Of a DNA stretch of 64,000 nucleotides, positions 1,921 through 17,573 are shown in pieces. This stretch comes from a virus. A program made the translations under genes and the position numbers. Position 1 is the stretch's first letter. Each line of letters begins with the position of its first letter. The notes beneath the pieces were generated by a model. That model saw only the letters and a list, made by a program, of their open reading frames with translations, ran no database searches and was not told where the DNA came from. Where the stretch lies: positions 1 through 64,000 of IMG/VR virus record IMGVR_UViG_3300015371_000029; one strand, 5' to 3'.

Positions 1921-1989
1921 GGTACCCTCCTCTGTGTTGCTTACGGAGCCTTGCGCTCCCGCCCTGAGTCTAGTCAGGGCGGCAGAGCA
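1921..1989 (-). promoter_or_regulatory. Array leader: two hairpins plus strong RBS
   Basis: Leftward order: GCCCTGA-CTAGAC-TCAGGGC, then GGAGC-GCAAG-GCTCC, then GAGGAGGGTACC adjoining the CTG start. Confidence 0.75.
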
Positions 1990-2334
1990 TTACTCAGCTT
2001 CTGCTTCCGGTTCCGGCAAGCCGCGCTCGTGCGCACGCTTCCTGTACTCGATGATCTGTGCCTCTTCTAGGTCGCCGTAGATCATCTCCTGCTGCTTGGC
2101 ACTGTGCTTCGCTTCCCAGAGCTTGATCTGCTCCTCTGCCATCCTCCGCTGGATTCGCGTCCTGCGCAACTTCGAGGCTTCGCTCCACGGCAGGAATGCC
2201 GGCAGGTTCATCTCGACCTGCATTTGTTGCGAGGCGAGATACACCAGATAGGAGATCCAAGCGACTGACAATGCTGCAAAGCCGACGCCGACAAAGATCC
2301 CCAAGAACGTCCAGAGAGTCGCAGCGATGATCAT
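1990..2334 (-). CDS. Membrane-anchored protein of unknown function
   Basis: 114 residues. Residues about 4-34 are strongly hydrophobic (IIAATLWTFLGIFVGVGFAA and on), one or two membrane passes, followed by a charged helical cytoplasmic-type tail (RRTRIQRRMAEEQIKLWEAKH) ending in PEPEAEAE. The ATG overlaps the stop of 2331-2669 (ATGA) behind AGGAGGAGCTTCA. Confidence 0.75.
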   Translation of the reverse strand: MIIAATLWTFLGIFVGVGFAALSVAWISYLVYLASQQMQVEMNLPAFLPWSEASKLRRTRIQRRMAEEQIKLWEAKHSAKQQEMIYGDLEEAQIIEYRKRAHERGLPEPEAEAE

Positions 2335-2669
2335 TGAAGCTCCTCCTGGTTCAGGTATTCGACCGGATCTGCCTTCTCGATGGCCGCTACCTCATAGGAG
2401 GCAGCGTACCATTCGTCTCCGTCCGCTTCGCAGATCGCGTACCAGTGTCCCTTGAATCCGGCGATGTCGTTGATGTCGTGTTGCATCCACGCACACTCGC
2501 CAACGGGATCCCACGATTCCGCCAACGTGTCATGAACTCTGACCACTCGTATGCGGTCGGGCGTCTCAGCATTGATCTCCATTCGTCGGATGACGAGGAC
2601 ATCGCCCGGATTCGGCTTAGGCAGATCGTCGCCGGGCATGAACGGGTTGCGAGTGTCGTCTTCGAACAT
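2331..2669 (-). CDS. Protein of unknown function
   Basis: 112 residues from the ATG at 2667-2669 in a TGATG overlap with the upstream stop; a GTG one codon earlier is an alternative. The beta-rich pattern (GDVLVIRRMEI, DRIRVVRVHDT, GHWYAICEADGDEWYAASYEV) suggests a small barrel. No family recognised. Confidence 0.75.
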   Translation of the reverse strand: MFEDDTRNPFMPGDDLPKPNPGDVLVIRRMEINAETPDRIRVVRVHDTLAESWDPVGECAWMQHDINDIAGFKGHWYAICEADGDEWYAASYEVAAIEKADPVEYLNQEELQ

Positions 2670-3058
2670 CACTCGCCTCTGGGAACAGGCCGAAGAGAGA
2701 TCTCGCCAACGTCATATGCCTGCTCGATGACGAATGTCTCGTTGGTGCGGATCTCTCGCGCGTCGTAGGGAGCCTCGTCACCGTTGTCATGCACCACGAT
2801 CACCCTCATCGTTGGTTCTGATTGGGGTTTCGTGAACGGCTGGACGAAGTTCATGCCGACGAGCGTGATCTGGAGCAGGCTTGGCGTGCCATCCTCGTTC
2901 CAGATGACTTCCAAGTATCCCTTGCGCGCGAGGCTTCGCGCCGCCGAGATGACGGTCTGGTTCTCTCGATCAATTCCCTTGCTGTGTCGCAAGTCATCGA
3001 GAAGCTTCTTCTCGTATGAATTGACGTTCGGAAGCCGATACTCAGTCGGAAATTCCAT
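2669..3058 (-). CDS. Possible winged-helix protein
   Basis: 129 residues from the ATG at 3056-3058, chosen because AGGAGGGTGCCAT lies directly before it; a longer frame would run through the leader hairpins. Residues 15-50 (KKLLDDLRHSKG to ARSLARKGYLEVIWNEDG) look like a winged-helix head with a beta wing. The second half is beta-rich (TMRVIVVHDNGDEAPYDAREI). DNA binding is only a suggestion. Confidence 0.75.
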   Translation of the reverse strand: MEFPTEYRLPNVNSYEKKLLDDLRHSKGIDRENQTVISAARSLARKGYLEVIWNEDGTPSLLQITLVGMNFVQPFTKPQSEPTMRVIVVHDNGDEAPYDAREIRTNETFVIEQAYDVGEISLRPVPRGE

Positions 3059-3141
3059 ATGGCACCCTCCTTTTGGTATGATAGCTGGATAGCTACCGGG
3101 AAGGGGCGCATCTCTGCGCCCCAACCGCTAGCTGTCGAGCA
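3059..3141 (-). promoter_or_regulatory. Array leader: two hairpins plus strong RBS
   Basis: Leftward: GCGGTTG lock, GGGGCGCA/TGCGCCCC stem, CTTCCCGG lock, then TAGCT-ATCC-AGCTA and AAAAGGAGGGTGCC. Confidence 0.8.
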
Positions 3142-3567
3142 TCAGACTCCTGTAGCAGACTCCTGCACCGGATCGCAGAACTCCTGAGCGATCTGGCGAA
3201 GATCCGTCAACTTGGCATAGGCCCCGTCGCCGCAAGGAGCGCTGTACCTGATGTCGTAGCTCTCATCCGTGTCGCTGCGCTCCACGGTGAAGTCGCCGCG
3301 ACCGTTGGCCGGCACTTCGTCCTTGGGCTCGTCGCCGCCCTCCATCTTGGACAGCCGCTCGACGATGCGCTGGAACCGATTGACGCCGCAGTGCCACTCG
3401 TCGCTGCCGCTGACGGTGTCGTAGATCTGGTAGACGTCATCGTCCATGACATCTGTGCGGAAGTACAGAACGTTGTCCTTGCGGACAACGACGCAGTTCT
3501 GCACATAGTGGTCGCGAACGACATCGAACAAGCCGTAGCGGAGCACTAGCTCCTTGACCTTGATCAT
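3142..3567 (-). CDS. Protein of unknown function
   Basis: 141 residues from the ATG behind AAGGAGGGTGCC. It contains mixed helices and strands (KELVLRYGLFDVVRDHYVQ, NVLYFRTDVMDDDVYQIYD) and three Cys without zinc-finger spacing. No domain recognised. It is alone in its cassette. Confidence 0.75.
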   Translation of the reverse strand: MIKVKELVLRYGLFDVVRDHYVQNCVVVRKDNVLYFRTDVMDDDVYQIYDTVSGSDEWHCGVNRFQRIVERLSKMEGGDEPKDEVPANGRGDFTVERSDTDESYDIRYSAPCGDGAYAKLTDLRQIAQEFCDPVQESATGV

Positions 3568-3643
3568 GGCACCCTCCTTGATAGGGCTTATATGGAGTTC
3601 GGAATTGAACTCCCCAGGGCGCTTACTCAGCGCCCCAGGCAGG
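3568..3643 (-). promoter_or_regulatory. Array leader: two hairpins plus strong RBS
   Basis: Leftward: TGGGGCGCT-GAGTA-AGCGCCCT, then GGAGTTC-AATTCC-GAACTCC, then AAGGAGGGTGCC. Confidence 0.8.
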
Positions 3644-3994
3644 TCACTCACGCCATTCCTCTTTCCAGAGTGGATCCACGAAGTCATCGACCATCAGAAG
3701 ATCTGGCCAACAACTTTCTTGACCGGTGGTTCTCGCGGGTCCGTGACAATTGTCGCAGATCTGTTGCTCTTTCGGCGTCGTAGCCTTCATGAGCCAGAAG
3801 CCGTTGCACCAGTGGCAATCGTGCCCACGAACACGAATGCCACTCTTCTTGAACTCCACGTAGCCACGGGCATACCGACAGGCATTTCCGTGACCAGGAA
3901 TCCAAATCGAAGAGTGATCGACTCCGCATTCGACCTCGACATATGCCAGGGTCTGCATCCGCTCCGTCAACGTTTGTACGCCGACGACTCTCAT
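3644..3994 (-). CDS. Zinc-ribbon protein
   Basis: 116 residues. Two CxxC knuckles at C60/C63 (CHWC) and C80/C83 (CDNC) make a four-Cys zinc ribbon. The N-terminal half is beta-rich (TLAYVEVECGVDHSSIWIPG). The ATG overlaps the stop of 3994-4545 (TGATG), so it is coupled to the DUF6011-like gene, which is also a Cys-knuckle protein. Nucleic-acid or protein binding is likely for such ribbons, but the target is unknown. Confidence 0.8.
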   Translation of the reverse strand: MRVVGVQTLTERMQTLAYVEVECGVDHSSIWIPGHGNACRYARGYVEFKKSGIRVRGHDCHWCNGFWLMKATTPKEQQICDNCHGPARTTGQESCWPDLLMVDDFVDPLWKEEWRE

Positions 3995-4545
3995 CACTTG
4001 TCCCGGCAGACCGGGCCGATGCCGAGCTGCCTAGACAGTTCGTCCGTCAACGTGCGGCCGCAAACGTAGCAGCGACCGATCTCGCGACCGAAGCGGGGGC
4101 CGGCATCGGGATCGTTCTTGATCGCTGTCAGGATGCGAGCCTTCTCGGGCTTCGCCTTGATCGGCCAACGAGCATCCGACGCCCAGACATCCACGAAGGT
4201 CGTGTACGTGCCCTTCTTGACGCTGTAGAACATCAGCGTCCCATCGGGCTTCGGAATTGCGTAACGACCGTCAGCCACTTCAGGCAGCTTACCTTCACTG
4301 TCGCTGTCCCTTGCTGCCCAGGGAAGAGGCTTGAGCGTGTCGATCACGTCACCGGCTCGCTTCTTGGGGATCTTGGCGAAGTCCACATCCGCGAGCCAGG
4401 CTCGTTGTTCCGGACTGAGCTTCGACAGATCCTTGCCGTCGCGCAGGCTGTTGAGGTAGGTCACCTGAGGTTCTGTCGCGAGCGGCCCGGTCAGTAGATG
4501 CTCCGGCACTGGCGAGCGTTCCTCCGAACGTTCTCTTGTAGTCAT
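3994..4545 (-). CDS. DUF6011-like zinc-binding protein
   Basis: 183 residues. The C-terminus (about 155-182) carries CYVCGRTLTDELSRQLGIGP-C, the pattern of the DUF6011 domain common in actinobacteriophages: C159, C162 and a distal C180 in a GIGPVC context. The central region includes a beta segment (GRYAIPKPDGTLMFYSVKKG) seen in larger phage proteins that carry this tail. The biochemical role of DUF6011 is not established. It heads a two-gene cassette behind AGGAGGGTACCA. Confidence 0.8.
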   Translation of the reverse strand: MTTRERSEERSPVPEHLLTGPLATEPQVTYLNSLRDGKDLSKLSPEQRAWLADVDFAKIPKKRAGDVIDTLKPLPWAARDSDSEGKLPEVADGRYAIPKPDGTLMFYSVKKGTYTTFVDVWASDARWPIKAKPEKARILTAIKNDPDAGPRFGREIGRCYVCGRTLTDELSRQLGIGPVCRDK

Positions 4546-4612
4546 TGGTACCCTCCTATTGGTTGTTCGGACATAATGTCCAGACCGGGCAGCCGAAGCT
4601 GCCCGACCTGCG
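4546..4612 (-). promoter_or_regulatory. Array leader: two hairpins plus strong RBS
   Basis: Leftward: GGGCAGC-TTCG-GCTGCCC with a UUCG tetraloop, GGACATTATGTCC, then AGGAGGGTACCA. Confidence 0.8.
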
Positions 4613-4976
4613 CATTACGCGCCGATGAAGGATGAACTAGGAAGCTTGAGCCGTAGCCTGTACACTTCTTCGTTGGGCCTTCATCCCATGTTAAGCCCTG
4701 CCTAGCCGGACCGAGCCGAACCCGACCGAGGCCGGTCGTGCCGCGCCAAACATGCCGCGCCAAGCCGCGCCTAGTCAATGCAAGTCCAGCCTTGCCTTAC
4801 CCCGCCGCGCCAGGACACGTTCGGCCGCACCTGGCACGGCTTTGCCCCACCACGTCCCGCGCCGCCTTGCCATTCCTTGACAATGCCACGTCTGGACGCG
4901 CCTTGCCGTGGCCGGTCACGTCAAGCCCAGCACAGGCAATCCGCGCCTGGCCTGGACGTGCCCCGCCCCACCCAGG
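4613..4976. repeat. Non-coding stretch with degenerate pentanucleotide repeats
   Basis: This gap has no convincing gene. From about 4695 the plus strand runs in NNNCC pentamers (AAGCC CTGCC TAGCC GGACC GAGCC GAACC CGACC), then slips phase and continues with CCGCG, CCTTG and CCAGG units to about 4976. The left part holds a separate CATGGGATGAAGG / CCTTCATC inverted repeat (about 4626-4690). Confidence 0.65.
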
Positions 4977-5699
4977 TTAGCCCTGAGCAGTTTCTTCATG
5001 CTTGATGCTCCGACGGTGATTGTCATGAGCATCTTCCTCAGTGCGGTTTCGACCCTTCTTGGCATCTCCTTCCGCAGGAGGCTTGTGATTCCTGCTGTTC
5101 GTGAGCTGCGCGAGGAATGAGCCGAATTCAGGGCGGTAGTCGCCCAGGCCATACTTCTGCGACCGCTCAACCACGAGATCGAGGAAGTCTCCATCGAGAT
5201 CCTCAGGGTCATATGCGATCTCGGCTTCGAGGTTCCATTGCTCAAACTTCGGCCGGGTGCGAGGCACTCGTCCCGATCCTGCTCCGGCGTTGGAGACCAT
5301 CGCTGTGTAGCGATAGCCTTCATCCCAGAGCGACTTCTGATCGCGAGGGCCGTCATAGAGCAACGGGATCCTGTACTCGCAGACGACGAGTGATCGCTTG
5401 ATCTCCTCGCCCTTGCGCCACTTCGTCGCCGCCGAACGCAGCAACTCTTTGACGTTCTTGCTCGGAATGTACGGGCCGATCCCAGGATCGAGATAGATCC
5501 GCAGTTGCCATTCCAGTTCACGCAGACGAGCTTCGTCATCGAGCGACTTTCTGCGCTTCTGCCCGAGCAAGTAGTACGCCCGGTACAACTCTGAGTCGCG
5601 ATCAACCTCGCCGTTGCTCATGAGAAGCGGTGAAGTGCCCTTCAGGTGCAGGGTCGCTGTGGCGTAGCCCACTGGCACGATCCTTCTTAACCAAGACAT
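4977..5699 (-). CDS. Unknown protein with RAMP-like motifs
   Basis: 240 residues from the ATG behind AGGAGGGTGCCAT; the longer frame would run into the leader. An N-terminal strand (ATLHLKGTSPLLM) is followed by PYIPSKNVKELLRSAATKW (77-94), like the Y-[IL]-P-G-x-x-[LIV]-[KR] helix of RAMP/Cas7-type folds. Near the C-terminus come RTRPKF-x-W (147-155) and a glycine-rich GLGDYRPEFGSF loop (184-195), also RAMP-like. The last 40 residues are charged and probably disordered. The RAMP comparison is by eye; there is no neighbouring CRISPR component. Phage proteins with the RTRP-x-F/G-x-GD-x-RP pattern are common but uncharacterised. Confidence 0.75.
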   Translation of the reverse strand: MSWLRRIVPVGYATATLHLKGTSPLLMSNGEVDRDSELYRAYYLLGQKRRKSLDDEARLRELEWQLRIYLDPGIGPYIPSKNVKELLRSAATKWRKGEEIKRSLVVCEYRIPLLYDGPRDQKSLWDEGYRYTAMVSNAGAGSGRVPRTRPKFEQWNLEAEIAYDPEDLDGDFLDLVVERSQKYGLGDYRPEFGSFLAQLTNSRNHKPPAEGDAKKGRNRTEEDAHDNHRRSIKHEETAQG

Positions 5700-5776
5700 A
5701 TGGCACCCTCCTATGGGTCTGATAGAACGCTGGATAGCGTCCGGCGGGGGAGCCATTTCTGGCCCCCAACCGCACG
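5700..5776 (-). promoter_or_regulatory. Array leader: two hairpins plus strong RBS
   Basis: Leftward: GCGGTT lock, GGGGGCCA-GAAA-TGGCTCCCCC, then GACGCT-ATCC-AGCGTT, then AGGAGGGTGCCAT. Confidence 0.8.
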
Positions 5777-5962
5777 CTACATTGAGACCTTCTTCACCGA
5801 GATGACGAAGGCCCCTTCAGGGAAGAACGCGGTGACGCACGGTCGCAGTTCTCCATTCACGAGTTCTTGATCGAGACTCGTGAGGTCGGCTGTCGCAGTA
5901 GCCTTCTCGTTGCCGAGCAGCCTCTGCTCCAACCACATGGCGAACTCCTCTGCCGTCATCAT
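5777..5962 (-). CDS. Small protein of unknown function
   Basis: 61 residues. The start is in an ATGATGA overlap with the stop of 5959-6417, so it is coupled; either ATG could serve. A helical N-terminus (TAEEFAMWLEQRLLG) and beta C-terminus (CVTAFFPEGAFVISVKKV) suggest a small alpha/beta fold. Confidence 0.7.
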   Translation of the reverse strand: MMTAEEFAMWLEQRLLGNEKATATADLTSLDQELVNGELRPCVTAFFPEGAFVISVKKVSM

Positions 5963-6417
5963 CCCCAGCGTCTCCGGAATGCCCGGAACTGGAACTCGCG
6001 ACGCATCAGCGTCGCAGCATCTTCATCGACCTTTTCGTACAGGTCTCCGACGAGCGCCATGACTTCGAGTTCCTGCCCGACATTCGCCTCGGCGATGGCC
6101 CGTCTCTGGACTGACGTTGGACGACTGCGAACGAACTCGCGACCGAACTCCGTCAACTCCCAGAAGCCGGTCTTGCCGGCGATCTTGTCGATCACGCCCA
6201 TCCGTCGCATGTACGCGAAGCGGATGGCTACGCAGTGACGAGCATGCCAGGCCGTGTCTTCATCGCTCGCCGCCTTCGGCCAGATCGTCTCAGCGACTCT
6301 CTGGATGTCAACTTCTCCGTCGCGATTCTGAAGATCGTTGACGATGGCGAGTAGCTCGCGGTCACTGAAGTCCGTGATCCGTAGGCTGATGCTGCCGTTG
6401 TTACTTCCACGGGGCAT
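5959..6417 (-). CDS. Probable winged-helix DNA-binding protein
   Basis: 152 residues. FSDRELLAIVNDLQNRDGEVDIQRVAETIWP (18-48) and VAIRFAYMRRMGVIDKIAGKTGFWELTEFGREFV (64-97) have the pattern of a winged helix with a wing ending in WELTEFG. The ATG lies inside the end of 6401-6823 (17-nt overlap). The upstream partner is also HTH-like, suggesting a regulatory pair. Confidence 0.75.
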   Translation of the reverse strand: MPRGSNNGSISLRITDFSDRELLAIVNDLQNRDGEVDIQRVAETIWPKAASDEDTAWHARHCVAIRFAYMRRMGVIDKIAGKTGFWELTEFGREFVRSRPTSVQRRAIAEANVGQELEVMALVGDLYEKVDEDAATLMRREFQFRAFRRRWG

Positions 6418-6823
6418 AGGCGTGTCCGCCTCCTTGTACGCCTCGGGTCGGACGGATCATCTCTTCCTCCCGCAAGTAGCGAAGGGAGGCATTGACCGTT
6501 CCATTGGCCAACCCGAGTTCGTTGATGAGTTCGCGGGCCGTCCAGTCAGGCTTTTTCGGACGGTCCTTCATGAGACCTAAGATGGTCTCAGCATGACGCT
6601 TGATCGCCGGTGTGACGACCAACGGCTGCTTGGCCCGGCTGGTCTGCTTCGACTTCGGGCCAGGCCTCGTGCCGTTCGCAGCCTTCAGGATCCGGTCGAT
6701 GATCGCTTGCTCTTCCCGAAGGGAAGCGACATGCATCATCATTTGGTCGATCTCTTCCTGAAGCTGATTGCGCTTCTCACGCAACGGTGCGATGATCTCG
6801 CTAACCGTCTTGTCTACTTTCAC
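6401..6823 (-). CDS. Coiled-coil plus winged-helix DNA-binding protein
   Basis: 140 residues from a GTG behind AAAGGAGGGTGCCAA. Residues 5-48 form a coiled coil, 52-60 are a basic RPGPKSKQ linker resembling an AT-hook, and 75-138 form a winged helix (TILGLMKDRPKKPDWTARELI to ASLRYLREEEMIRPTR). This layout is typical of small phage transcription regulators. It is the first gene of a three-gene cassette. Confidence 0.8.
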   Translation of the reverse strand: MKVDKTVSEIIAPLREKRNQLQEEIDQMMMHVASLREEQAIIDRILKAANGTRPGPKSKQTSRAKQPLVVTPAIKRHAETILGLMKDRPKKPDWTARELINELGLANGTVNASLRYLREEEMIRPTRGVQGGGHAYAPWK

Positions 6824-6905
6824 TTGGCACCCTCCTTTTGTAGGCTATGCTAGTAGTGCATCTCTGCACCGGGAAGCGTTTCGTCTCCGAAACGCAACCG
6901 CTACA
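6824..6905 (-). promoter_or_regulatory. Array leader: two hairpins plus strong RBS
   Basis: Leftward: GCGGTTGC lock, GCGTTTC-GGAGAC-GAAACGC, CTTCCCGG lock, GTGCA-GAGA-TGCAC, AAAAGGAGGGTGCC. Confidence 0.8.
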
Positions 6906-7085
6906 GAATTGTGTGGACGAGCAGGCAGAGAAACGAGGTAGGAGGATGCCATATTCTCAGGGCCTCGCTGTTGCTTCTACCTTAACCCTCTAGGACAATG
7001 TCCTTGGTGTGACTGGCAAAGAGCTTTGACTCATCCACAGCTATCGTGCAACCTCCTAGTTTAGCTTAGGGCATCACCCGGCTTT
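6906..7085. other. Unassigned gap, possibly decayed cassette
   Basis: No supported gene. On the minus strand an AGGAGG (about 7050) precedes a possible 18-codon frame (GTG..DESKLFASHTKDIVLEG) with poor spacing. A GGACATTGTCC palindrome lies near 6992. With the start-less leader at 7086-7163 this looks like a cassette that lost its gene. Confidence 0.4.
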
Positions 7086-7163
7086 CACCGTATGATACCC
7101 TCCGTCCTGCGGGCCTTATTGCCCCGTCTGGAGCGGGTTAGGCTCCAGTCGGCGCAGCAATGC
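7086..7163 (-). promoter_or_regulatory. Orphan array leader without a downstream gene
   Basis: Leftward: CTGGAGC-CTAACC-CGCTCCAG, then GGGCAATAAGGCCC, then GGACGGAGGGTATC. The sequence after the RBS (ATACGGTGAAAGCC) gives no ORF longer than a few codons in any frame near it. Confidence 0.65.
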
Positions 7164-7451
7164 CTAGATGCCTGCGCTTCTCTTGTTGGTGATCATCTCG
7201 CGAACCTCGACGGGATCGAGACCTGTGAACTCCCATTGGTCGTTGAGCCAGACGTAGGCTGCCTGGAAGGATTCGCCCATGTCGATCAGGCCGATGGTGT
7301 AGTCCCTGGTTTTCTCCCAGAGCCTTAGCCTCAGCCTCTCGATGTACAGATCGTACATGGTGCTCATGTGCGGGAAATCACCCTTGATGTCCCGAGCAGC
7401 CGCATCTGCTATCGCTCGTAGCAGTTGATCCTGATTCGTTGAAACGCTCAT
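7164..7451 (-). CDS. Protein of unknown function
   Basis: 95 residues, mainly helical (DQLLRAIADAAARDIKG, MYDLYIERLRLRLWEKTRDY). The ATG overlaps the stop of 7448-7666 (ATGA), so it is coupled. No motif recognised. Confidence 0.75.
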   Translation of the reverse strand: MSVSTNQDQLLRAIADAAARDIKGDFPHMSTMYDLYIERLRLRLWEKTRDYTIGLIDMGESFQAAYVWLNDQWEFTGLDPVEVREMITNKRSAGI

Positions 7452-7666
7452 GAATCGAGGATCGACTTCGCATCGTTCTCCAGCCTGACGTACATGTCAC
7501 GGATCTCTGACCAGTGTTCATGGTAGTGCCTGGCTGTTGCGCGTTCGTGCATCGTTGTCGCTGCGTCGATCTTCTGCCGATAGTCCTCGGCCTGTTGCGT
7601 TGCCTCCCGGCGTCGGTCGCCGATCAACCTCGCAATTCGGAGAGCCTTTTCCTCCGCAGTTTGCAA
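7448..7666 (-). CDS. Helical protein with TTG start
   Basis: 72 residues from a TTG at 7664-7666 placed correctly behind AAAGGAGGGGTACAGA; no nearby in-frame ATG exists. Continuous charged helix (EEKALRIARLIGDRRREATQQ..HYHEHWSEIRDMYVRLEND), likely coiled coil. Function unknown. Confidence 0.7.
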   Translation of the reverse strand: MQTAEEKALRIARLIGDRRREATQQAEDYRQKIDAATTMHERATARHYHEHWSEIRDMYVRLENDAKSILDS

Positions 7667-7782
7667 TCTGTACCCCTCCTTTGGTCGGTTGGAGCCGGTA
7701 GCTCCGGGCCAATGCCCCGAAGGGCAGAGACCCGCAGCACCCAGCCGGAGGGTATTTGGCGGGATGCGCTATGGAGGATGAC
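7667..7782 (-). promoter_or_regulatory. Array leader: two hairpins plus strong RBS
   Basis: Leftward: GCCC-TTCG-GGGC inside a longer CTCTGCCC..GGGCATTGG arm, then GGAGC-TACCG-GCTCC, then AAAGGAGGGGTACAGA before the TTG. Confidence 0.75.
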
Positions 7783-8397: not shown

Positions 8398-8481
8398 TGT
8401 ATCCCTCCTTATTTTCTGGCTAAGTAGCGGGATGCTACCGAACCGGACAGCGCATGTCTGCCCGATCCGCTAGACGCCTGC
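8398..8481 (-). promoter_or_regulatory. Array leader: two hairpins plus strong RBS
   Basis: Leftward: CGGGCAG-ACATGCG-CTGTCCG, then GTAGC-ATCCC-GCTAC, then AAGGAGGGATACA before the TTG. Confidence 0.75.
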
Positions 8482-11671: not shown

Positions 11672-11883
11672 GTGCCGTACTTGGCCTCGTAGTACCTGTC
11701 GTAGTCGCCTGTATCAGGCGGCCAAGGCAGGCCGTGCTTCTCGGCGTGACGCTTCCCGCCGGCAACGGCTTCTGCGTCCCAGTCCGACTCCTTCCAAGGG
11801 CCGATGTGTGGCGGCCCGTCGTTCATCTCGTCGGCGAGTGAGGCGTAATCCTCCTCATCCATCTCTTCGCTGAGCTTACTCAT
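11668..11883 (-). CDS. Small acidic protein of unknown function
   Basis: 71 residues from the ATG behind AGGAGGGTACCA; upstream in-frame sequence is leader. Acidic N-terminus (SEEMDEEDYASLADEMND) and aromatic-rich C-terminus (GDYDRYYEAKYG). No motif recognised. Confidence 0.75.
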   Translation of the reverse strand: MSKLSEEMDEEDYASLADEMNDGPPHIGPWKESDWDAEAVAGGKRHAEKHGLPWPPDTGDYDRYYEAKYGT

Positions 11884-11955
11884 TGGTACCCTCCTATTTG
11901 GTTCGTTCATGGAGCCTGTGCTCCTGCCCCGAAGCTCGTCGGGGCAGCAGAACAT
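11884..11955 (-). promoter_or_regulatory. Array leader: two hairpins plus strong RBS
   Basis: Leftward: CTGCCCCG-ACGAGCTT-CGGGGCAG, GGAGC-ACAG-GCTCC, ATAGGAGGGTACCA. Confidence 0.85.
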
Positions 11956-12339
11956 TCACCAGTCGAGATCGTGCGACCCATCGGGCCAGACGATGTAGAG
12001 CGGCTTGGCTGCTCTGCGGGTCTCGCGGATCACCATCCAGGTGCCGCTGCCGCGCCGCATCTCGTTCCGACCGAACGGTGTCGTGACCACGATGTCGGAG
12101 ACCTTGACGATCTCGCGGTTGCGCTTACGGTTCTGCTCTGCGTCACCGCCCGGATGTGGGACGGTCTCGTAGCCGAGCTGCTTAGAGATCCGCAGCATCT
12201 GCTTATCCGCGCCATCCTCGCACATGCCGTTGTGCAGATAGGACTTACCCTTGCGCAATGTCCGCAAGAGCATCTTGACCGTCGTGATCTGCTGTTCGGT
12301 CATTCCTCGGCGGGTGCCCGAGAAGCCAACGTGAATCAC
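11956..12339 (-). CDS. SLOG/DprA-like nucleotide-binding protein
   Basis: 127 residues from a GTG behind AAAGGAGGGTATCAGCT. It has a Rossmann-like start (IHVGFSGTRRGMTEQQ, 2-17), a central HNGMCEDGADK segment, DIVVTTPFG (about 82-90) and a GSGTWMVIR-x-R helix. This is the pattern of phage SLOG-superfamily proteins, which bind nucleotides or nucleotide-derived signals. The ligand cannot be told from sequence. SLOG proteins occur in both phage metabolism and defence signalling. Confidence 0.75.
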   Translation of the reverse strand: MIHVGFSGTRRGMTEQQITTVKMLLRTLRKGKSYLHNGMCEDGADKQMLRISKQLGYETVPHPGGDAEQNRKRNREIVKVSDIVVTTPFGRNEMRRGSGTWMVIRETRRAAKPLYIVWPDGSHDLDW

Positions 12340-12414
12340 AGCTGATACCCTCCTTTGCTATGGTGCGAGCGCACCGGGTGCTGCCCCACCGCAGAGGGGC
12401 AGACACCGCTGTGC
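12340..12414 (-). promoter_or_regulatory. Array leader: two hairpins plus strong RBS
   Basis: Leftward: GGTGT lock, CTGCCCC-TCTGCGGT-GGGGCAG, CACCCGG lock, GGTGCG-CT-CGCACC, AAAGGAGGGTATCAGCT before the GTG. Confidence 0.85.
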
Positions 12415-12891
12415 TCAGTTGTTCTTTCGGAGCCAGTGCTCCTCGTGCTTCTTGTTGTCCGCGATGCTGACGACCTCGATGTTGTTGTAGTCGCCGTAGT
12501 CTTCCTCGGTCATCTGCTTCGCCAGCTCGGGCGACGTGGCCGAGACGACATCCCAGAAGCGGATGTAGCCGTCCTTGTCCGCGCCATCTTCGTTCGGGCC
12601 GTAAAACGAGCCGCGCACCAGGTAGCGGTGCTCGGTTGTGCCGACCTTGTTGAAGCTGTAGCGGGCGTCGGCGATGTAGCAGTTGTTCGTCCGCACCTTC
12701 GCGCTGATCTCGGCCATCATCTTCTCGGCCTCTTCCAGCGTACGGAACTGCATCGCCTTGTCCGCGTCGTCGCGAGCGCCGCTGGCGCTGAAGCGCGGCT
12801 TGTCCTCATCGAAGTCCCATTCGCGAAACGTGCCTCGCGTCGGGCTTTCGATGATGAAATACTCGCCGAAGTTGTGCATGCTAAGAGGCAC
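12415..12891 (-). CDS. Protein of unknown function
   Basis: 158 residues from a GTG at 12889-12891, with GAGGTGATC upstream in the preceding gene; an ATG at 12879 (MHNFGEYF) is an equally possible start. It overlaps the previous stop by 11 nt. Strand-rich ends flank a helix (TLEEAEKMMAEISAKV). No domain recognised. Confidence 0.7.
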   Translation of the reverse strand: MPLSMHNFGEYFIIESPTRGTFREWDFDEDKPRFSASGARDDADKAMQFRTLEEAEKMMAEISAKVRTNNCYIADARYSFNKVGTTEHRYLVRGSFYGPNEDGADKDGYIRFWDVVSATSPELAKQMTEEDYGDYNNIEVVSIADNKKHEEHWLRKNN

Positions 12892-13144
12892 TGACGATCA
12901 CCTCGACGGTCGAGGATGCGACCAGCATCTGTCCGAGTCCGGTGCCGAGGTTCGGGCTGGCACGGAACTCCTTGTAGTGCTCCTCGCAACCATTTCCCCA
13001 AGACCCGAAGACCGTGGGGAAGTCGTACTCAGCCGTCTTGTCGCACTGGAAGTTGCACCGAGGCAACGTACTGACCTCGATGATCTGGTGCGGAACCAGC
13101 GTGACCGACTCGCCGTTGAGACGCTTACCTACCTTGCGTTTCAT
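12881..13144 (-). CDS. Protein of unknown function
   Basis: 87 residues from the ATG behind AGGAGGGTACCC. A basic start (MKRKVGKRLNGES), three Cys (CNFQCDK.., GCEEHYKE) and a final hydrophobic strand. CxxxC and a distal C-x-x-H could bind metal. Longer in-frame reading would cross the leader. Confidence 0.75.
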   Translation of the reverse strand: MKRKVGKRLNGESVTLVPHQIIEVSTLPRCNFQCDKTAEYDFPTVFGSWGNGCEEHYKEFRASPNLGTGLGQMLVASSTVEVIVSAS

Positions 13145-13227
13145 GGGTACCCTCCTATTTTGTTCTGGAGCGGGTGCTCCGAGCGCCGCCCGGTGTAACT
13201 TAGTTGGGCGGCGTTGCGCAGGATCCG
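13145..13227 (-). promoter_or_regulatory. Array leader: two hairpins plus strong RBS
   Basis: Leftward: CGCCGCCC / GGGCGGCG stem whose loop contains AACTAAGTTAC, GGAGC-ACCC-GCTCC, ATAGGAGGGTACCC. Confidence 0.85.
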
Positions 13228-13425
13228 CTATTCGACGGGCTTGTAGAGGTTCAGGCCCAGCTTCAGCTCGGTGTCCGGGACATCGATGTTGCCGGCGGTC
13301 GTCGCGAACATCTCGCTGCTGCCGGACTTGGACTTCCCGAACGACTTGCTGATGTCGCACACGATGGTCAGCTTCTTGTTCTTGCCCGTTCCGCTGACCG
13401 TCATCTCGACGTTCTTTGCTGGCAT
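13228..13425 (-). CDS. Conserved small phage protein
   Basis: 65 residues from the ATG behind AGGAGGGTACCGAA. KNVEMTVSG..KLTIVCDISKSFGKSKSGSS..FATTAGN resembles a short protein found in many phages and some bacteria with the same strand-strand-SKSG-turn pattern; its function is not known. Confidence 0.75.
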   Translation of the reverse strand: MPAKNVEMTVSGTGKNKKLTIVCDISKSFGKSKSGSSEMFATTAGNIDVPDTELKLGLNLYKPVE

Positions 13426-13513
13426 TTCGGTACCCTCCTTTTGGTAGTTAATGGCCGGTGCAAGTAGCTTATGCACCGGGTGCCATCCCTTTCGAGATGG
13501 ACACCGCTACATA
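13426..13513 (-). promoter_or_regulatory. Array leader: two hairpins plus strong RBS
   Basis: Leftward: GCGGTGT lock, CCATC-TCGAAAGG-GATGG, CACCCGG lock, GGTGCA-TAAGCTACT-TGCACC, AAAAGGAGGGTACC. Confidence 0.85.
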
Positions 13514-13768
13514 CTACTCGGCGAGTTGCTTGTTCAGCTCTCTGATGCGAACCTTCGCCTCCAGTTCGCGAACCTCTTGCTCGGCGGGACTGAGCGAGGC
13601 GACCTGATTGACGGGACTGCGCAGCGCGCAGATGAGTACGCCGATCCAGCCCAGAAGAACTCCCCAGACCCAGCCGTTCGACCGGCCCTTGCCCGTGGCG
13701 ATGTGCTGTGAGAGCCAGATCGCTGCGACCCATGAGCCGAACCAGAAGAGAACGATGATTGCTGCCAT
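13514..13768 (-). CDS. Two-pass membrane protein
   Basis: 84 residues. Two hydrophobic segments (about 2-20 and 32-50: WVWGVLLGWIGVLICAL) flank a short GKGRSN loop, then a cytoplasmic helix (ELEAKVRIRELNKQLAE). Small two-pass proteins of this shape are often superinfection-exclusion or membrane-modifying factors in phages, but this is not shown here. Confidence 0.75.
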   Translation of the reverse strand: MAAIIVLFWFGSWVAAIWLSQHIATGKGRSNGWVWGVLLGWIGVLICALRSPVNQVASLSPAEQEVRELEAKVRIRELNKQLAE

Positions 13769-13847
13769 TTTGGCACCCTCCTATTTGGGTTTTGTGTGGG
13801 CGAAATTGCCCGGTCGGGGCTTACGCAGCCCCGCCCGCGCGATTGCG
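13769..13847 (-). promoter_or_regulatory. Array leader: two hairpins plus strong RBS
   Basis: Leftward: CGGGGCT-GCGTA-AGCCCCG, GGGCAATTTCGCCC, AATAGGAGGGTGCCAA. Confidence 0.8.
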
Positions 13848-14327
13848 CTACATGTGTTCGACGAACTTTACCGACTGGCTCTCTCGACCATCGAGAGACA
13901 TCGTTCCGACTCGCCAGATGCACTCTCCTTGCTCTACGAACTCGACGGTGACGTACAGCGCAGGTTCACCGTCCCAGTTGACGTGGAAGCCCTGCTTACG
14001 CGGCGAGCTGTCCGAGACATCCAGTTCGACCGATGGGAGTCGGAGCATCCCGCCGACCACAACCGGCTGCGGCTGCTTGACTAGCTTACCGTGGAAGTGT
14101 TCCATGACTTCCTTCGGCGGCTCGCCCTGATCGGCCGGCAGGTCTGACCAGGTCATCCATTCGTCGCCCGGATCCTTGAGGTCGATGACGTCGCCGCGCA
14201 GCCGGAACTCCAACCGTTCGGGGCCTTCGGCCTCGGTCATCGTGACGGTGTAGCGGAACTCGTAGATCGCTCCATCCGGACTTATCCAAAGGCAAGTCGG
14301 ACTGGTGGGATCGTTGACGATCTCCAT
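13848..14327 (-). CDS. Beta-rich protein of unknown function
   Basis: 159 residues behind AAGGAGGGTACCAAC. Alternating strands throughout (AIYEFRYTVTMTEAEG, RLEFRLRGDVIDL, PALYVTVEFVEQGECIWRV). No motif recognised. Single-gene cassette. Confidence 0.75.
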   Translation of the reverse strand: MEIVNDPTSPTCLWISPDGAIYEFRYTVTMTEAEGPERLEFRLRGDVIDLKDPGDEWMTWSDLPADQGEPPKEVMEHFHGKLVKQPQPVVVGGMLRLPSVELDVSDSSPRKQGFHVNWDGEPALYVTVEFVEQGECIWRVGTMSLDGRESQSVKFVEHM

Positions 14328-14405
14328 GTTGGTACCCTCCTTCGTAGCTTAGCATGGGCAGATGCCCGGATGCCCCATCGTTAGATGGGGACACCGCGCT
14401 ACTGC
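14328..14405 (-). promoter_or_regulatory. Array leader: two hairpins plus strong RBS
   Basis: Leftward: GCGGTGT lock, CCCCATC-TAAC-GATGGGG, GGGCATCTGCCC, a CTAAGCTAC spacer, AAGGAGGGTACCAAC. Confidence 0.85.
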
Positions 14406-14612
14406 TTACCTGACGCTGACGAGCTTGCCGTTCTCCATCTTGCCTGTTGCGTACCAGACGTGGGGTTGCGGGTAATGCGGGCCTTCGATGGAGACTTCTC
14501 CGTCTTGCGGGATCGTCTCCAGGCCGTTGGCGGTAACGGTGACGTGATCGCCGTTCTTGACGGCCTCCTTCAGGGCCTTCTTGGTCTTGAAGTTCGGATG
14601 TGCGTATGCCAT
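14406..14612 (-). CDS. Conserved small phage protein (GPHYP type)
   Basis: 68 residues from the ATG behind CGGAGGGTACCA. HPNFKTKKALKEAVKNGDHVTV..GEVSIEGPHYPQPHVWYA matches a short family common in unrelated phages, with a helix, an SH3-like strand and the EGPHYP-x-PH-x-WYA signature. Function unknown. Confidence 0.8.
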   Translation of the reverse strand: MAYAHPNFKTKKALKEAVKNGDHVTVTANGLETIPQDGEVSIEGPHYPQPHVWYATGKMENGKLVSVR

Positions 14613-14690
14613 TGGTACCCTCCGTTGTAGCTTAGTTTGGGCCAGTTGCCCGGAACCCATCCTACGTTGTCTTGCAGGATGGGAGCCGCG
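14613..14690 (-). promoter_or_regulatory. Array leader: two hairpins plus strong RBS
   Basis: Leftward: CCCATCCT / AGGATGGG with a 12-nt loop, GGGC-AACTG-GCCC, a CTAAGCTAC spacer, ACGGAGGGTACCA. Confidence 0.85.
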
Positions 14691-14975
14691 CTACCGTCCG
14701 CCGCAACCGGCATGTCCGCAGCCGCCGCAGAATCCGCCATTACAACAAGCGCATCCGCATGGGCCGGGCCTGTGCGCTCTGGGCGCCAGTGCCGGAATCT
14801 CGATGACGTGAACGGCCTCGACGTGCTCGCCCAGAATGCCTTTCATCTCAGCGATCTCGGCCTCGATCTCGGCGTCGGTCTTGCCGGCGACGTAGCTTCC
14901 GGCAACCTTCTTGCCGAAGAAGCCATACTCGCCGTTGACGCCGTGATCGATGTACTCGATCTTTATGGTCGTCAT
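14691..14975 (-). CDS. Protein with Cys/Gly-rich metal-binding tail
   Basis: 94 residues from the ATG behind AAGGAGGGTACTC. The body is alpha/beta (TTIKIEYIDHGVNGEYGFFG, a DAEIEAEIAEMKG helix). The last 22 residues hold seven Cys in a Gly/His background (GPCGCACC..FCGGCGHAGCGG), which looks metal-binding. Function unknown. Confidence 0.8.
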   Translation of the reverse strand: MTTIKIEYIDHGVNGEYGFFGKKVAGSYVAGKTDAEIEAEIAEMKGILGEHVEAVHVIEIPALAPRAHRPGPCGCACCNGGFCGGCGHAGCGGR

Positions 14976-15043
14976 GAGTACCCTCCTTTGGTAATTGGTG
15001 CGATGACACCGGCAAGGCTCTCCGCGAGGAGAGCCAACCGCTG
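14976..15043 (-). promoter_or_regulatory. Array leader: two hairpins plus strong RBS
   Basis: Leftward: GCGGTT lock, GGCTCTC-CTCGCG-GAGAGCC, TTGCCGG lock, GGTG-TCATCG-CACC, AAAGGAGGGTACTC. Confidence 0.85.
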
Positions 15044-15229
15044 TCATGCCGGCAGCCCGTCCTTAACGTACCTGGACAGGAAAAGCGCCAGCATGAACTC
15101 GGTGAAGCTTGCCTCGTTGGGAACGAGGCTCAAGATCCACCGAGACACATCAGCCGCCTCTTCGTCGGTGAGCGTTCCACCGTCGTAGACGCGCTGATGA
15201 AGCTCGTGAGCTTCATCTACAGTCAACAT
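15044..15229 (-). CDS. Small helical protein of unknown function
   Basis: 61 residues from the ATG behind AAAGGAGGGTATCG. Helical (VDEAHELHQRVYDGGTLTDEEAADVSRWILSLV) with an EF-like acidic turn but no full calcium loop. Confidence 0.75.
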   Translation of the reverse strand: MLTVDEAHELHQRVYDGGTLTDEEAADVSRWILSLVPNEASFTEFMLALFLSRYVKDGLPA

Positions 15230-15328
15230 CGATACCCTCCTTTTGTACTTTGGCGTGGGAACACACCGGGTGCCATCCTTATGTAGGATGGACACCGCTG
15301 CGTTCTTACCACTTCCAGCCGAAGCGGA
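15230..15328 (-). promoter_or_regulatory. Array leader: two hairpins plus strong RBS
   Basis: Leftward: GCGGTGT lock, CCATCCT-ACATA-AGGATGG, CACCCGG lock, GGTGTG-TTCC-CACGCC with one G-T pair, AAAGGAGGGTATCG. Confidence 0.85.
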
Positions 15329-15703
15329 TCATGCGGCTTTGGTGTTGATGATGGAGCTGATCTCGACCTTCAAGCGGTTGCGCGCCTCGACCACCTGACG
15401 GTTGTATGAGATCTTCTGGTCGATGTCGCCGTAGATGATGTTGGCAGGCTTCTTCGGGGTGAGCTGAATGTCGATCCACTTCCCGTCGTCGCCGCCGAAC
15501 ATCTTCGCGTAGTCGTTGTACGCCTTCTCGATGCTGGTGATCTCCCAGCCGTCCGGGACGCTGTCCTGGGCGAAGTCCTCGACCTCCATGAAGGTGTGAG
15601 CATCGACCAAGAGGCTTATGACGGCCTCCTCGCCCTTCTTGGGCAGACCATGTCTTGAGTAGTTGATGGTGTAGACCGCCTCCGGCCACTTATGCCATTT
15701 CAT
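15329..15703 (-). CDS. Protein of unknown function
   Basis: 124 residues behind CAGGAGGGTACTC. Strand-rich N-terminus (VYTINYSRHGLPKKGEEAVISLLVDAHTF) and helical C-terminus (ISYNRQVVEARNRLKVEISSIINT). No domain recognised. Confidence 0.75.
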   Translation of the reverse strand: MKWHKWPEAVYTINYSRHGLPKKGEEAVISLLVDAHTFMEVEDFAQDSVPDGWEITSIEKAYNDYAKMFGGDDGKWIDIQLTPKKPANIIYGDIDQKISYNRQVVEARNRLKVEISSIINTKAA

Positions 15704-15771
15704 GAGTACCCTCCTGTTGGTAAATGGGGCTGATCCCCCGAAGCTGCCCTGTTACGGGCAGCAACGGTGGT
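15704..15771 (-). promoter_or_regulatory. Array leader: two hairpins plus strong RBS
   Basis: Leftward: CGTT lock, GCTGCCC-GTAACA-GGGCAGC, GGGG-ATCAG-CCCC, CAGGAGGGTACTC. Confidence 0.85.
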
Positions 15772-16038
15772 TCAGTCGTTGATGGCGTGCTCGCGCTTGC
15801 TCTCGACGACAGGCCAGCCGAATGAGCGCCAGCGCCCTTCGGTCGGCTCGGAGTATGAGCAGAGCGTGACCTGGCGCTTCTCCTTGAGCCGCTCGCTGCG
15901 GTGGTGCGGCGCGAGGTTGATGACGTTGTCGCCGCCTGCGTTGCTGGCGGGCCAACAGGCGTCCGAGCGAAGCATGTCGAACGGGAACTCGCCGTCGCCC
16001 TCGACAACGAAGCGATGGAGATAGACTTTCCTTGCCAT
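15772..16038 (-). CDS. Protein of unknown function
   Basis: 88 residues from the ATG behind AAGGAGGGTACATC. Basic, with strands at both ends (KVYLHRFVVEGDG, RWRSFGWPVVES) and a histidine pair (APHHRSERLKEKRQ). No motif recognised. Confidence 0.75.
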   Translation of the reverse strand: MARKVYLHRFVVEGDGEFPFDMLRSDACWPASNAGGDNVINLAPHHRSERLKEKRQVTLCSYSEPTEGRWRSFGWPVVESKREHAIND

Positions 16039-16115
16039 GATGTACCCTCCTTGTGGTATGCGGACTAGATGTCCGGAAGGCTCCCTGTTGTAGTTAAGGG
16101 GAGCCAACCGCGCAG
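16039..16115 (-). promoter_or_regulatory. Array leader: two hairpins plus strong RBS
   Basis: Leftward: GCGGTT lock, GGCTCCC / GGGAGCC with a 13-nt loop, TTCCGG lock, GGAC-ATCTA-GTCC, AAGGAGGGTACATC. Confidence 0.85.
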
Positions 16116-16256
16116 CTAGCGCGAATGGATGATGTCGATGAGCCGGTTGAACCAGGCGCGGGTCTGCGGCTCGATGACCGTCTCGACCGTGACCTGCGGG
16201 GCGGGCCTGTTGTGCCGGCGGGCCTTCTCGTTCCGGCGGCGCTGCTTCTTGCTCAT
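16116..16256 (-). CDS. Very small basic protein
   Basis: 46 residues from the ATG behind AAGGAGGGTACTC. Strongly basic start (SKKQRRRNEKARRHNRP) then a helix (TRAWFNRLIDIIHSR). Could bind nucleic acid; unproven. Confidence 0.7.
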   Translation of the reverse strand: MSKKQRRRNEKARRHNRPAPQVTVETVIEPQTRAWFNRLIDIIHSR

Positions 16257-16344
16257 GAGTACCCTCCTTGTGGTGTGTGTTTGGAGCGATGCTCCGGGTG
16301 CCGTTCGCTGTAACTTAGTTGAGCGAACGGACACCGCAGCTTCG
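16257..16344 (-). promoter_or_regulatory. Array leader: two hairpins plus strong RBS
   Basis: Leftward: GCGGTGT lock, CCGTTCGC / GCGAACGG with loop TCAACTAAGTTACA, CACCCGG lock, GGAGC-ATC-GCTCC, AAGGAGGGTACTC. Confidence 0.85.
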
Positions 16345-16560
16345 CTATGCGGGAAGTATGACGGCGATGCTGTCCGGGATGACGTGGTAGATGTCGTCGC
16401 CGTTATCCCACTTCACCGGGATCGCGTCGCCAACTTCGCTGCCGTCCGGTGCCATGACCGTTCCGTACTTCGAATCCGGGATGGATGCGACACGCGAACC
16501 GACCTCGATGTCGTTGAGATCGTAGTCCAGCGAGAAGCATTCGTCGGAATGCATAGGCAT
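16345..16560 (-). CDS. SH3-like barrel small protein
   Basis: 71 residues behind AAAGGAGGGTAC. Strand pattern VGSRVASIPDSKYGTVMAPDG..IPVKWDNGDDIYHVIPDSIAVI is that of small KOW/SH3-like barrels common in phages. No partner is known. Confidence 0.75.
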   Translation of the reverse strand: MPMHSDECFSLDYDLNDIEVGSRVASIPDSKYGTVMAPDGSEVGDAIPVKWDNGDDIYHVIPDSIAVILPA

Positions 16561-16636
16561 GTACCCTCCTTTTTCGTTGTTTTGTTGCGGCTACAAGACC
16601 GGGCGATGTTATTCGCCCGATCTTCTAGTCGTCATG
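16561..16636 (-). promoter_or_regulatory. Array leader: two hairpins plus strong RBS
   Basis: Leftward: TCGGGCGA-ATAAC-ATCGCCCGG, a weak TTGT-AGCC-GCAA second stem, AAAAAGGAGGGTAC. Confidence 0.7.
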
Positions 16637-16717
16637 CTAGAGCTGGGAAAGGTTGGGCTGCTTCCCCGTCAGCTTCCAGATCTTGAGCGCGAGATCGACT
16701 TTGTCCTTTAGCGACAT
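16637..16717 (-). CDS. Possible 26-residue peptide
   Basis: ATG at 16715-16717, four nt after the upstream TGA, giving MSLKDKVDLALKIWKLTGKQ and six more residues before TAG. There is no strong Shine-Dalgarno, so expression would depend on coupling to 16722-16904. It fills a cassette space exactly up to the next leader, which supports it. Confidence 0.5.
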   Translation of the reverse strand: MSLKDKVDLALKIWKLTGKQPNLSQL

Positions 16718-16721
16718 GACA

Positions 16722-16904
16722 TCACGTCGCGATCTGGACTGCGAGCATGGCCGGACAACCGTTCTTGACGAGCTTCCGGAACAAGCTTAGATCGACCTCG
16801 TTGGCTGAGGTGACTGCGACGAGCGGGTTGATCCCGCCGCGCTGGAGAGACTCGACTTTCCAATCGAATGTCTCCTCTTCCTTGTCATCATACCAAGGTC
16901 GCAT
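16722..16904 (-). CDS. Small protein of unknown function
   Basis: 60 residues from the ATG behind CAGGAGGGTACAAC; the much longer in-frame extension crosses the leader. The start MRPWYDDKEEE resembles MASWYDSSRM of the next cassette upstream. A beta-helix pattern follows (GINPLVAVTSANEVDLSLFRKLVKNG). Confidence 0.7.
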   Translation of the reverse strand: MRPWYDDKEEETFDWKVESLQRGGINPLVAVTSANEVDLSLFRKLVKNGCPAMLAVQIAT

Positions 16905-16993
16905 GTTGTACCCTCCTGTTGAAGATGGCTCGGTGCGGGATGCACCGGGGAGCCTTCCCGTTGTACTTAGCTGCGGGAAGGCAACCGCTGCAT
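16905..16993 (-). promoter_or_regulatory. Array leader: two hairpins plus strong RBS
   Basis: Leftward: GCGGTT lock, GCCTTCCC / GGGAAGGC with loop containing CTAAGTAC, CCCCGG lock, GGTGC-ATCCC-GCACC, CAGGAGGGTACAAC. Confidence 0.85.
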
Positions 16994-17113
16994 CTAGGCG
17001 TTGAAGCCGAGCGCGAGCAAGACTCGCTTGATGAACGATGTCCTGGGCTTCGGCGCGTCGAGCATCATCATCTCGGCGTGCGTCATTCGGGACGAATCGT
17101 ACCAACTCGCCAT
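16994..17113 (-). CDS. 39-residue protein of unknown function
   Basis: ATG behind AAGGAGGGTACTC; MASWYDSSRMTHAEMMMLDA then a basic helix (SFIKRVLLALGFNA). It is short but has the full leader and strong RBS, so it is accepted as a gene. Confidence 0.7.
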   Translation of the reverse strand: MASWYDSSRMTHAEMMMLDAPKPRTSFIKRVLLALGFNA

Positions 17114-17180
17114 GAGTACCCTCCTTGTGTTCGGCAATCGGATGATTACCGGGAGCATCCCCCTTTCGGGGGATGACCCG
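17114..17180 (-). promoter_or_regulatory. Array leader: two hairpins plus strong RBS
   Basis: Leftward: CATCCCCC-GAAA-GGGGGATG, GGTAATC-ATCC-GATTGCC (one G-T pair), AAGGAGGGTACTC. Confidence 0.85.
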
Positions 17181-17573
17181 CTACTCGTCCGAGAACTTGT
17201 GTTTCGGGCAACGATGAACCCGTAGGCCGTCGATGCTCTTCGTCATGATCGCCTTTTCGTTGCACTTGGGGGAAGTGATGATCCGGAGCTGGTAGAACGA
17301 TCCGGCGGGGCCGGATGCGGTGGTCTTGCCTCGGCGCTTCTTGAGGTAGACGATCTCCAACTCGCCGGTCTCCGGATCCGGGATGTGCGCTCCGCATGTC
17401 GGATTGTCGGGGACGTTGTTGCGGTCGGTCTGTTGAATCCGCCTCGGCGGGCCGAATTGGAGTTGTTCCTTGTGCGGGACGGCGAAGCGCGCGGCGGCGG
17501 TTGCGCGTCCGTTGTGGACGAGCTTCTTGCCTCCGCGAGCTTTCCGCGCCTTGCGGCGTTGAGATCCGCTCAT
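17181..17573 (-). CDS. Basic protein with scattered Cys/His, first gene of left arm
   Basis: 130 residues behind AAGGAGGGTACAAA. A basic N-terminus (MSGSQRRKARKARGGKK) and Cys at 60, 104 and 122 with nearby His (CGAHI, RCPKHKF) suggest metal or nucleic-acid binding. As the most upstream gene of the leftward bank it should be the first translated. Function unknown. Confidence 0.75.
   Translation of the reverse strand: MSGSQRRKARKARGGKKLVHNGRATAAARFAVPHKEQLQFGPPRRIQQTDRNNVPDNPTCGAHIPDPETGELEIVYLKKRRGKTTASGPAGSFYQLRIITSPKCNEKAIMTKSIDGLRVHRCPKHKFSDE

Follow-up and report, generated by a model that had tools for sequence, protein, structure and literature searches.

The early mRNA of T7-type phages carries irregular RNase III hairpins with internal loops between the early genes of one long transcript. 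In cluster K mycobacteriophages, start-associated sequences (SAS) and extended start-associated sequences (ESAS) were described, whose 17-bp inverted repeats are conserved in sequence and show little support for RNA pairing (PMC3203893). The put RNA of HK022, which occurs at few sites, suppresses pausing and termination of RNA polymerase as an RNA alone (PMC9378689), and a review of translational coupling reported a negative correlation between coupling and RNA structure immediately past the stop codon of the upstream gene (PMC12548453). Here we analyzed positions 1 to 64,000 of the IMG/VR virus record IMGVR_UViG_3300015371_000029, a stretch of 64 kb referred to below as the window, in which small leftward genes are preceded by folded leaders with one arm that can pair in two mutually exclusive ways. 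We tentatively read these leaders as two-state intercistronic RNAs that would be set by the ribosome finishing the upstream gene and would act as insulators.

On the minus strand of the window, 28 Shine-Dalgarno sequences (SDs) are located between 17.2 and 1.9 kb ahead of small genes, and a folded leader is present at each of them (Table 1). This agrees with the array of about 28 leaders claimed in an original prediction made from the sequence alone: all leaders described there were found, from SD 1931 to SD 17125, and the second stems quoted as examples (GGAC-ATCAC-GTCC, GGGC-ATACT-GCCC, and GGTGC-ATCCC-GCACC) precede SDs 8766, 10401, and 16917, respectively. In addition to the 28 counted, SD 17586 is preceded by an atypical leader and SD 496 by a partial one. 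Apart from the exceptions given with Table 1, every leader consists of a core hairpin, a second hairpin, and a strong SD (AAGGAGGGTACC), the SDs of the array being mostly AGGAGGGTACC or AGGAGGGTGCC. Read from 5′ to 3′, the first half of a leader is composed of arm A, a G, an inner helix (CGG, or GA in a second leader type), an internal loop, and the core stem with its loop; the second half continues with an internal loop, the inner helix (CCG or TC), a G, arm B, a loop, arm C, a short A/C-rich spacer, the SD, and the start. A is the segment upstream of the core, and B comprises the 5′ side and the loop of the second hairpin, which begins 0 to 5 nt past the core. B pairs either with A, giving a single long irregular hairpin, or with C, giving the second hairpin, and the A:B pairing often extends into the loop of the B:C hairpin. 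In the case of the leader with SD 3071, the arms read AGCTA (A), TAGCT (B), and AGCTA (C). The two G residues flanking the inner helices are usually opposed as a G•G mismatch, and within the long hairpin it is this mismatch and the inner helix that vary least; some leaders have the mismatch only, without an internal loop. A:B, inner helix, and core together make up an irregular stem of about 20 interrupted base pairs between genes.

Leader-specific pairing was assessed for 94 leaders with a strong core, using fixed windows to the left of the core, to its right, and further to the right. The best antiparallel complementarity served as score, and partners were swapped 2,000 times among leaders of the same phage. 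As such swaps preserve the composition and all shared motifs, only leader-specific matching counts. The native A:B score was 17.1 compared to 12.6 after swapping (z = 15), the native B:C score was 14.6 compared to 11.6 (z = 11), and in both cases none of the 2,000 swaps reached the native value; A against C, the control, gave a z of 0.3. When the leaders of the window were taken alone with non-overlapping windows, z was 9.8 for A:B and 6.2 for B:C, again with none of 5,000 swaps each reaching the native value, and a phage from outside the earlier set (L060, nine leaders) gave a z of 5.1 for A:B. At GGAGG sites of the rightward region, which served as a further control, neither A:B nor B:C was significant. 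The mean score of the core stem was 21.7 (11.8 for shuffled sequences), and 68% of the cores exceeded the 95th percentile of the shuffles. A genome-wide scan for a core with arms ranked the array leaders at the top, its specificity being too low for use as a detector.

Covariation was equally evident in alignments. Among 12 leaders of the GGAAG type, 96% of the cells were paired and changes on both sides occurred in 11 of 17 pairs; for nine leaders of the CGG type, the values were 94% and 15 of 18 pairs. Sliding the partner by 1 to 3 columns lowered pairing from about 95% to between 34% and 49% in both alignments. Since these alignments were built by hand from leaders picked with the structure already known, the swap test is the stronger evidence. 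A covariance model (CM), a tool that the original prediction had proposed, was built from the nine CGG-type leaders and picked up additional leaders in the arrays of other phages, in coding-strand orientation. For a test of wobble pairs, G•U and A•C were treated alike when the core was located, and the conserved structural A•C of the second leader type was tallied separately (21 cases). The core stems contained 83 G•U and 19 A•C on the mRNA strand (P = 5e-11; 45 and 51 after shuffling). As a G•U on the mRNA strand is an A•C mismatch on the other strand, this result indicates that selection acts on the transcribed RNA. The conclusion that the leader is an RNA element, in which pairing is conserved while the sequence is free, is strongly supported by the arm swaps, the compensatory changes, and the strand-specific G•U excess, in line with what had been proposed. 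Missing covariation and loss of the architecture in homologous genes had been named as grounds for giving up this view; we found large covariation, and homologous genes of related phages retain the architecture with unrelated stems, as for the gene at 3994-4545, which has leader-preceded homologs in seven other array loci.

All folds were computed, and the numbers of shared nucleotides were taken from minimum-energy folds. The analysis covered the 69 leaders with both helices, with the upstream stop codon assigned by the longest-open-reading-frame (longest-ORF) rule. A:B and B:C share at least 2 nucleotides of B in 68 of the 69 leaders, and A:B is the more stable pairing in all 69, on average by 9.5 kcal/mol. 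Since arm A is in addition transcribed before B and C, B:C is expected to require that A be covered or cut off; the B:C pairing is conserved despite losing to A:B in predicted energy. The stop codon of the upstream gene lies inside A in 61 of the 69 leaders and straddles the end of A in five, at about 64 nt from the SD. The two-hairpin layout described originally was therefore right about the core and the B:C hairpin, both of which are real, and missed the third arm A and the stop codon within it. Two independent hairpins are only part of the picture: the second one has to compete with the more stable pairing of B to the stop-bearing upstream arm.

Neither of the two folds is predicted to hide the SD. 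The predicted openness of the SD did not differ significantly between the states (0.479 and 0.471, P = 0.33), so that a hidden SD in one fold was rejected, and it exceeded that of dinucleotide-shuffled leaders in both states (0.507 versus 0.422 and 0.490 versus 0.402, P < 4e-7). Control of translation by SD hiding is accordingly unsupported. When C was replaced by that of another leader with A covered, the predicted openness dropped from 0.488 to 0.454 (P = 0.025). At the first gene of the array, which has no translated gene ahead of it, the SD is present and the fold is absent.

We consider it possible, at somewhat below even odds, that the leader is a two-state RNA set by the terminating ribosome and acting as an insulator. 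As long as A is free of the ribosome, A, usually with the upstream stop codon, would pair with B and give a single long irregular hairpin of A:B, usually the G•G mismatch, the inner helix, the internal loop, and the core. With a ribosome at the stop codon, A would be covered, the core hairpin could persist, and B would pair with C, resulting in two hairpins that would be short enough for the space from the terminating ribosome to the next start. In either state the gap would be self-folded and the strong SD open, and the next gene would initiate from its own SD whether or not its neighbor is translated. This proposal builds on several observations: two pairings that exclude each other, selection acting on the RNA, a stop codon that usually lies in arm A, the energy advantage of A:B, and an SD predicted to be as open in one state as in the other and more open than in shuffled leaders; from these we infer the ribosome as the switch between A:B and B:C. 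The benefit would be insulation, that is, steady and independent initiation without scanning or coupling between genes and with the gap protected. An insulator is favored since the SD is equally open in both states and more open than in shuffled leaders, and since structure past the stop codon correlates negatively with coupling (PMC12548453). If the proposal is correct, phages have a general means, independent of sequence, by which every gene in a long operon is expressed as a unit of its own; the fold ahead of it would be set by the ribosome leaving the previous gene, and the leaders would be natural parts for operons whose genes do not disturb one another. One genome alone provides about 28 natural variants, and the candidates number some 160 in total, so that the pairing rules are already in the data, and both insulation and processing can be tested with reporters.

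Several observations weigh against this proposal. In the A:B helix G•U and A•C are about equally frequent (33 and 24). B:C was borderline in phage L060, where 269 of 5,000 swaps reached the native value, and was not evident in the arm-swap test for phage G010 (L035). Direct sequence similarity between A and C was not above that of the swaps, which leaves A:B and B:C as two separate grounds for the claim. In a few leaders the upstream stop codon lies upstream of A, and the distance from stop to core is variable (mostly −6 to −18), so a ribosome would cover A to differing extents. Finally, a compact genome could place stop codons in A without any function.

The main alternative, which we regard as rather unlikely, is an mRNA processing site at which RNase III or a similar enzyme would cut the long A:B-plus-core hairpin near the mismatch or internal loop. 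The upstream mRNA would then end in the core hairpin and the downstream mRNA would refold B:C as a 5′-terminal protective hairpin, so that the conserved competition would reflect the states before and after the cut. The long hairpin of A:B and core is similar to the irregular RNase III hairpins located between the early genes of T7, and processing would explain the second fold; B:C loses while A is attached. No sigma-70 promoter-like sites were found on the minus strand of the array (scan of positions 1000 to 18600), and a long transcript without promoters within the array would need processing. The second hairpin, beginning right past the core, would lie near the new 5′ end, and hairpins at or near the 5′ end can stabilize bacterial mRNA (PMC3997798). 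Processing leaves unexplained, however, why the upstream stop codon is inside the stem in 61 of 69 leaders; moreover, some leaders have the mismatch without the internal loop, and a Pfam scan of 20 window proteins, mostly encoded by the array, revealed no nuclease domain. The same scan yielded no candidate RNA-binding protein, which argues against an RNA regulon, i.e., a phage or host protein that would read the G•G mismatch or internal loop and regulate all leaders jointly. Such a protein would fit the constancy of mismatch and inner helix, both of which are shared by the array leaders together with the SD extension GUACC, but it would not require a second, competing helix, and we consider this explanation improbable.

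Classical translational coupling would mean that the SD is hidden in one fold and becomes free once the upstream gene is translated. A stem that precedes the next gene and contains the stop codon, as the RNA-unfolding model has it (PMC12548453), would agree with this. With the predicted openness of the SD being the same in both folds and above that of shuffled leaders, and with about 64 nt between stop and SD, coupling of this kind has only a slight chance of being correct. Even less probable is an element acting at the DNA level, with inverted repeats for recombination, cassette exchange, or protein binding: the genes around the leaders are mosaic and inverted repeats are a common DNA signal, but the G•U excess in the cores is strand specific (83 versus 19), the leaders are strictly tied to stop codon and SD, and their free sequence offers a protein no motif. 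Terminators or chance folding of GC-rich gaps, for which the commonness of GC-rich stems at 59% GC might speak, are refuted by the arm swaps (0 of 2,000), the nonsignificant control region, and the absence from the minus strand (positions 1000 to 18600) of intrinsic terminators, which combine a GC stem with a U run behind it.

The leader architecture was also present in 12 other uncultured contigs (G003 to G011, G014, IMGVR_UViG_3300036832_000620, and IMGVR_UViG_3300036832_000251; G007 and G011 are near duplicates), giving some 160 candidate leaders across 13 contigs, about 28 of them in the genome of the window. The carrier contigs were identified by the SD or by a short motif of the leader, followed by inspection or scoring, so that conservation of the SD is partly selected; the extension GUACC occurs in 88 to 98% of the array leaders, which were collected using GGAGGG[TA] only. 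The motif AGGAGGGTRCC was absent from 12 cultured actinophages. In one of these, Gordonia phage Schomber, a single match to model R3 was obtained (56782-56839, E = 4.8e-4); its A arm holds the stop codon of gene 69, and the match could be either an isolated relative or due to chance.

In six related phage contigs, a tRNA-minihelix-like RNA replaces the leader of one homologous gene (L033 near 13334 and L060 near 13554; on the reverse complement, L029 16786, L030 11368, L031 15933, and L037 18033). It has a 7-bp acceptor-like stem and a 5-bp T-arm whose loop is of the TTCRACT type, lacks D and anticodon arms, and is perhaps an attP or a tRNA remnant. Another gene family has the SD AGGAGGGAGC (L033 11371 and L060 11842; on the reverse complement, L028 15303, L029 15466, L030 9441, L031 14628, and L130 4380), and several copies carry a TATACT-like promoter box (e.g., GCGATATACTCT) where the leader would be, possibly the promoter of the array operon or of a regulator.

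The record, 66.4 kb in length, belongs to an uncultured virus of bacteria and is a myovirus. Terminase, portal, head protease, major head protein, and tail sheath are encoded by rightward genes of the window, and a DnaE-like DNA polymerase and the small genes by leftward ones. According to the DNA polymerase, the closest cultured relatives are actinobacteriophages (~45% identity), and the matches of terminase and sheath include phages of Arthrobacter, Streptomyces, Brevibacterium, and Gordonia; a search for the host through the terminase in genome contigs gave no relative. No Rfam 15 family matched above its gathering score in a cmscan of the window.

The features of the array are listed in Table 1. 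The architecture that had been proposed for nearly every gap is not complete in all leaders: SD 16570 lacks the second hairpin, SD 7104 an ORF, and SD 1931 an ATG, GTG, or TTG start codon. In the region 7070-7165, a complete leader with the SD CGGAGGGTATC is followed by no ORF of more than four codons; this leader 22 is an orphan copy or a decayed gene. At positions 1905 to 1931, the SD AGGAGGGTACC of leader 28 is followed by CTGAGACG, with none of the three start codons at the usual spacing, and a CTG start is possible.

Table 1. Leaders of the array and the leader of its first gene, with window positions
Feature	Position	Strand	Core	Remarks
Array of 28 leaders, putatively two-state	1921-17192	−		Between small leftward genes
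Leader 1	17115-17192	−	17156-17175	A arm, CGG inner helix, B/C hairpin, SD; CM R2, E = 4.8e-9
Leader 2	16907-16999	−	16952-16982	
Leader 3	16560-16643	−		Long A:B hairpin present, second hairpin (B:C) absent; SD 16570
Leader 4	16258-16347	−	16301-16330	
Leader 5	16041-16122	−	16079-16105	
Leader 6	15705-15779	−	15743-15762	
Leader 7	15231-15308	−	15273-15291	
Leader 8	14977-15052	−	15016-15035	
Leader 9	14614-14700	−	14656-14683	
Leader 10	14331-14407	−	14373-14390	
Leader 11	13772-13850	−	13815-13833	
Leader 12	13429-13516	−		CM match 13467-13516
Leader 13	13146-13230	−	13184-13213	Weak A:B
Leader 14	12344-12419	−	12381-12402	
Leader 15	11885-11964	−	11924-11947	
Leader 16	11161-11230	−	near 11197-11213	Short A:B
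Leader 17	10391-10465	−	10426-10448	
Leader 18	10026-10104	−	10061-10087	
Leader 19	8756-8827	−	8789-8810	
Leader 20	8399-8486	−	8439-8469	
Leader 21	7670-7743	−	7713-7726	
Leader 22	7094-7165	−	7128-7148	No ORF after it
Leader 23	6826-6912	−	6876-6895	
Leader 24	5702-5784	−	5748-5767	
Leader 25	4547-4627	−	4581-4610	Homologous gene leader-preceded in seven other array loci
Leader 26	3568-3656	−	3613-3639	A:B weak by eye
Leader 27	3061-3139	−	3103-3122	SD 3071; CM R2, E = 2.9e-11, leader in the seed of the model
Leader 28	1921-1999	−	1959-1982	SD 1931
Leader of first gene of array	17576-17640	−		SD 17586, conserved; no comparable A/core/B/C fold

Three further stretches of the window were conspicuous. 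On the plus strand at 17640-17740, an SD-like AGGAGGGGGTACCATT near 17725 is found amid inverted repeats, as if the leader that opens the array had been mirrored. About 800 nt at 18500-19330, adjoining the start of the leftward array, are without a clear gene, of low complexity, and G-rich on the plus strand, and about 290 nt at 4690-4980, located between two leftward genes, are C-rich, of low complexity, and apparently noncoding.

Compared with the RNase III sites of T7-type phages, the leaders likewise place an irregular stem of about 20 bp between genes. To our knowledge, these sites have neither an arm-sharing alternative hairpin nor a systematic stop codon in the stem; the leaders have both and are candidate cleavage sites. 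With SAS/ESAS (PMC3203893) the leaders share the many copies before early or nonstructural genes, the extended SD by the start, and the inverted repeats just upstream. The analogy drawn in the original prediction is valid to this extent, but the cluster K repeats, conserved in sequence without support for pairing, are the opposite of the leaders, in which the stem sequence is free, pairing is conserved, and one arm takes part in two exclusive pairings. Membership in SAS/ESAS was rejected: the 13-bp GGGATAGGAGCCC of the start sites is replaced by AAGGAGGGUACC as the conserved element of the leaders, and stems that vary while pairing is kept stand in place of sequence-conserved 17-bp repeats. 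As is the case for HK022 put RNA (PMC9378689), compared by description only, the leaders are structured nascent cis-acting RNAs in early phage transcripts; unlike put, they occur at nearly every junction and have an alternative fold tied to a stop codon. A literature search for alternative intercistronic folds of phages returned nothing matching. As in attenuation or coupling by RNA unfolding (PMC12548453), a ribosome engaged in translation or termination would occupy one arm and thereby redirect the pairing, but the leaders are located at nearly every operon junction instead of at one leader peptide or gene pair, the SD is predicted to be open in both folds, and terminators are absent. Two features of a ribosome-controlled two-state RNA are present, namely exclusive conserved pairings of one segment and a ribosome-accessible codon in the competing arm (61 of 69 leaders). 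The leaders may thus represent a new class of RNA, a suggestion to which we give a little less than an even chance: ribosome-set two-state punctuation that marks almost all junctions without gene overlap in a phage early operon and in which the last codons and the stop codon of the previous gene would be co-opted as a switch arm that shields or processes the junction.

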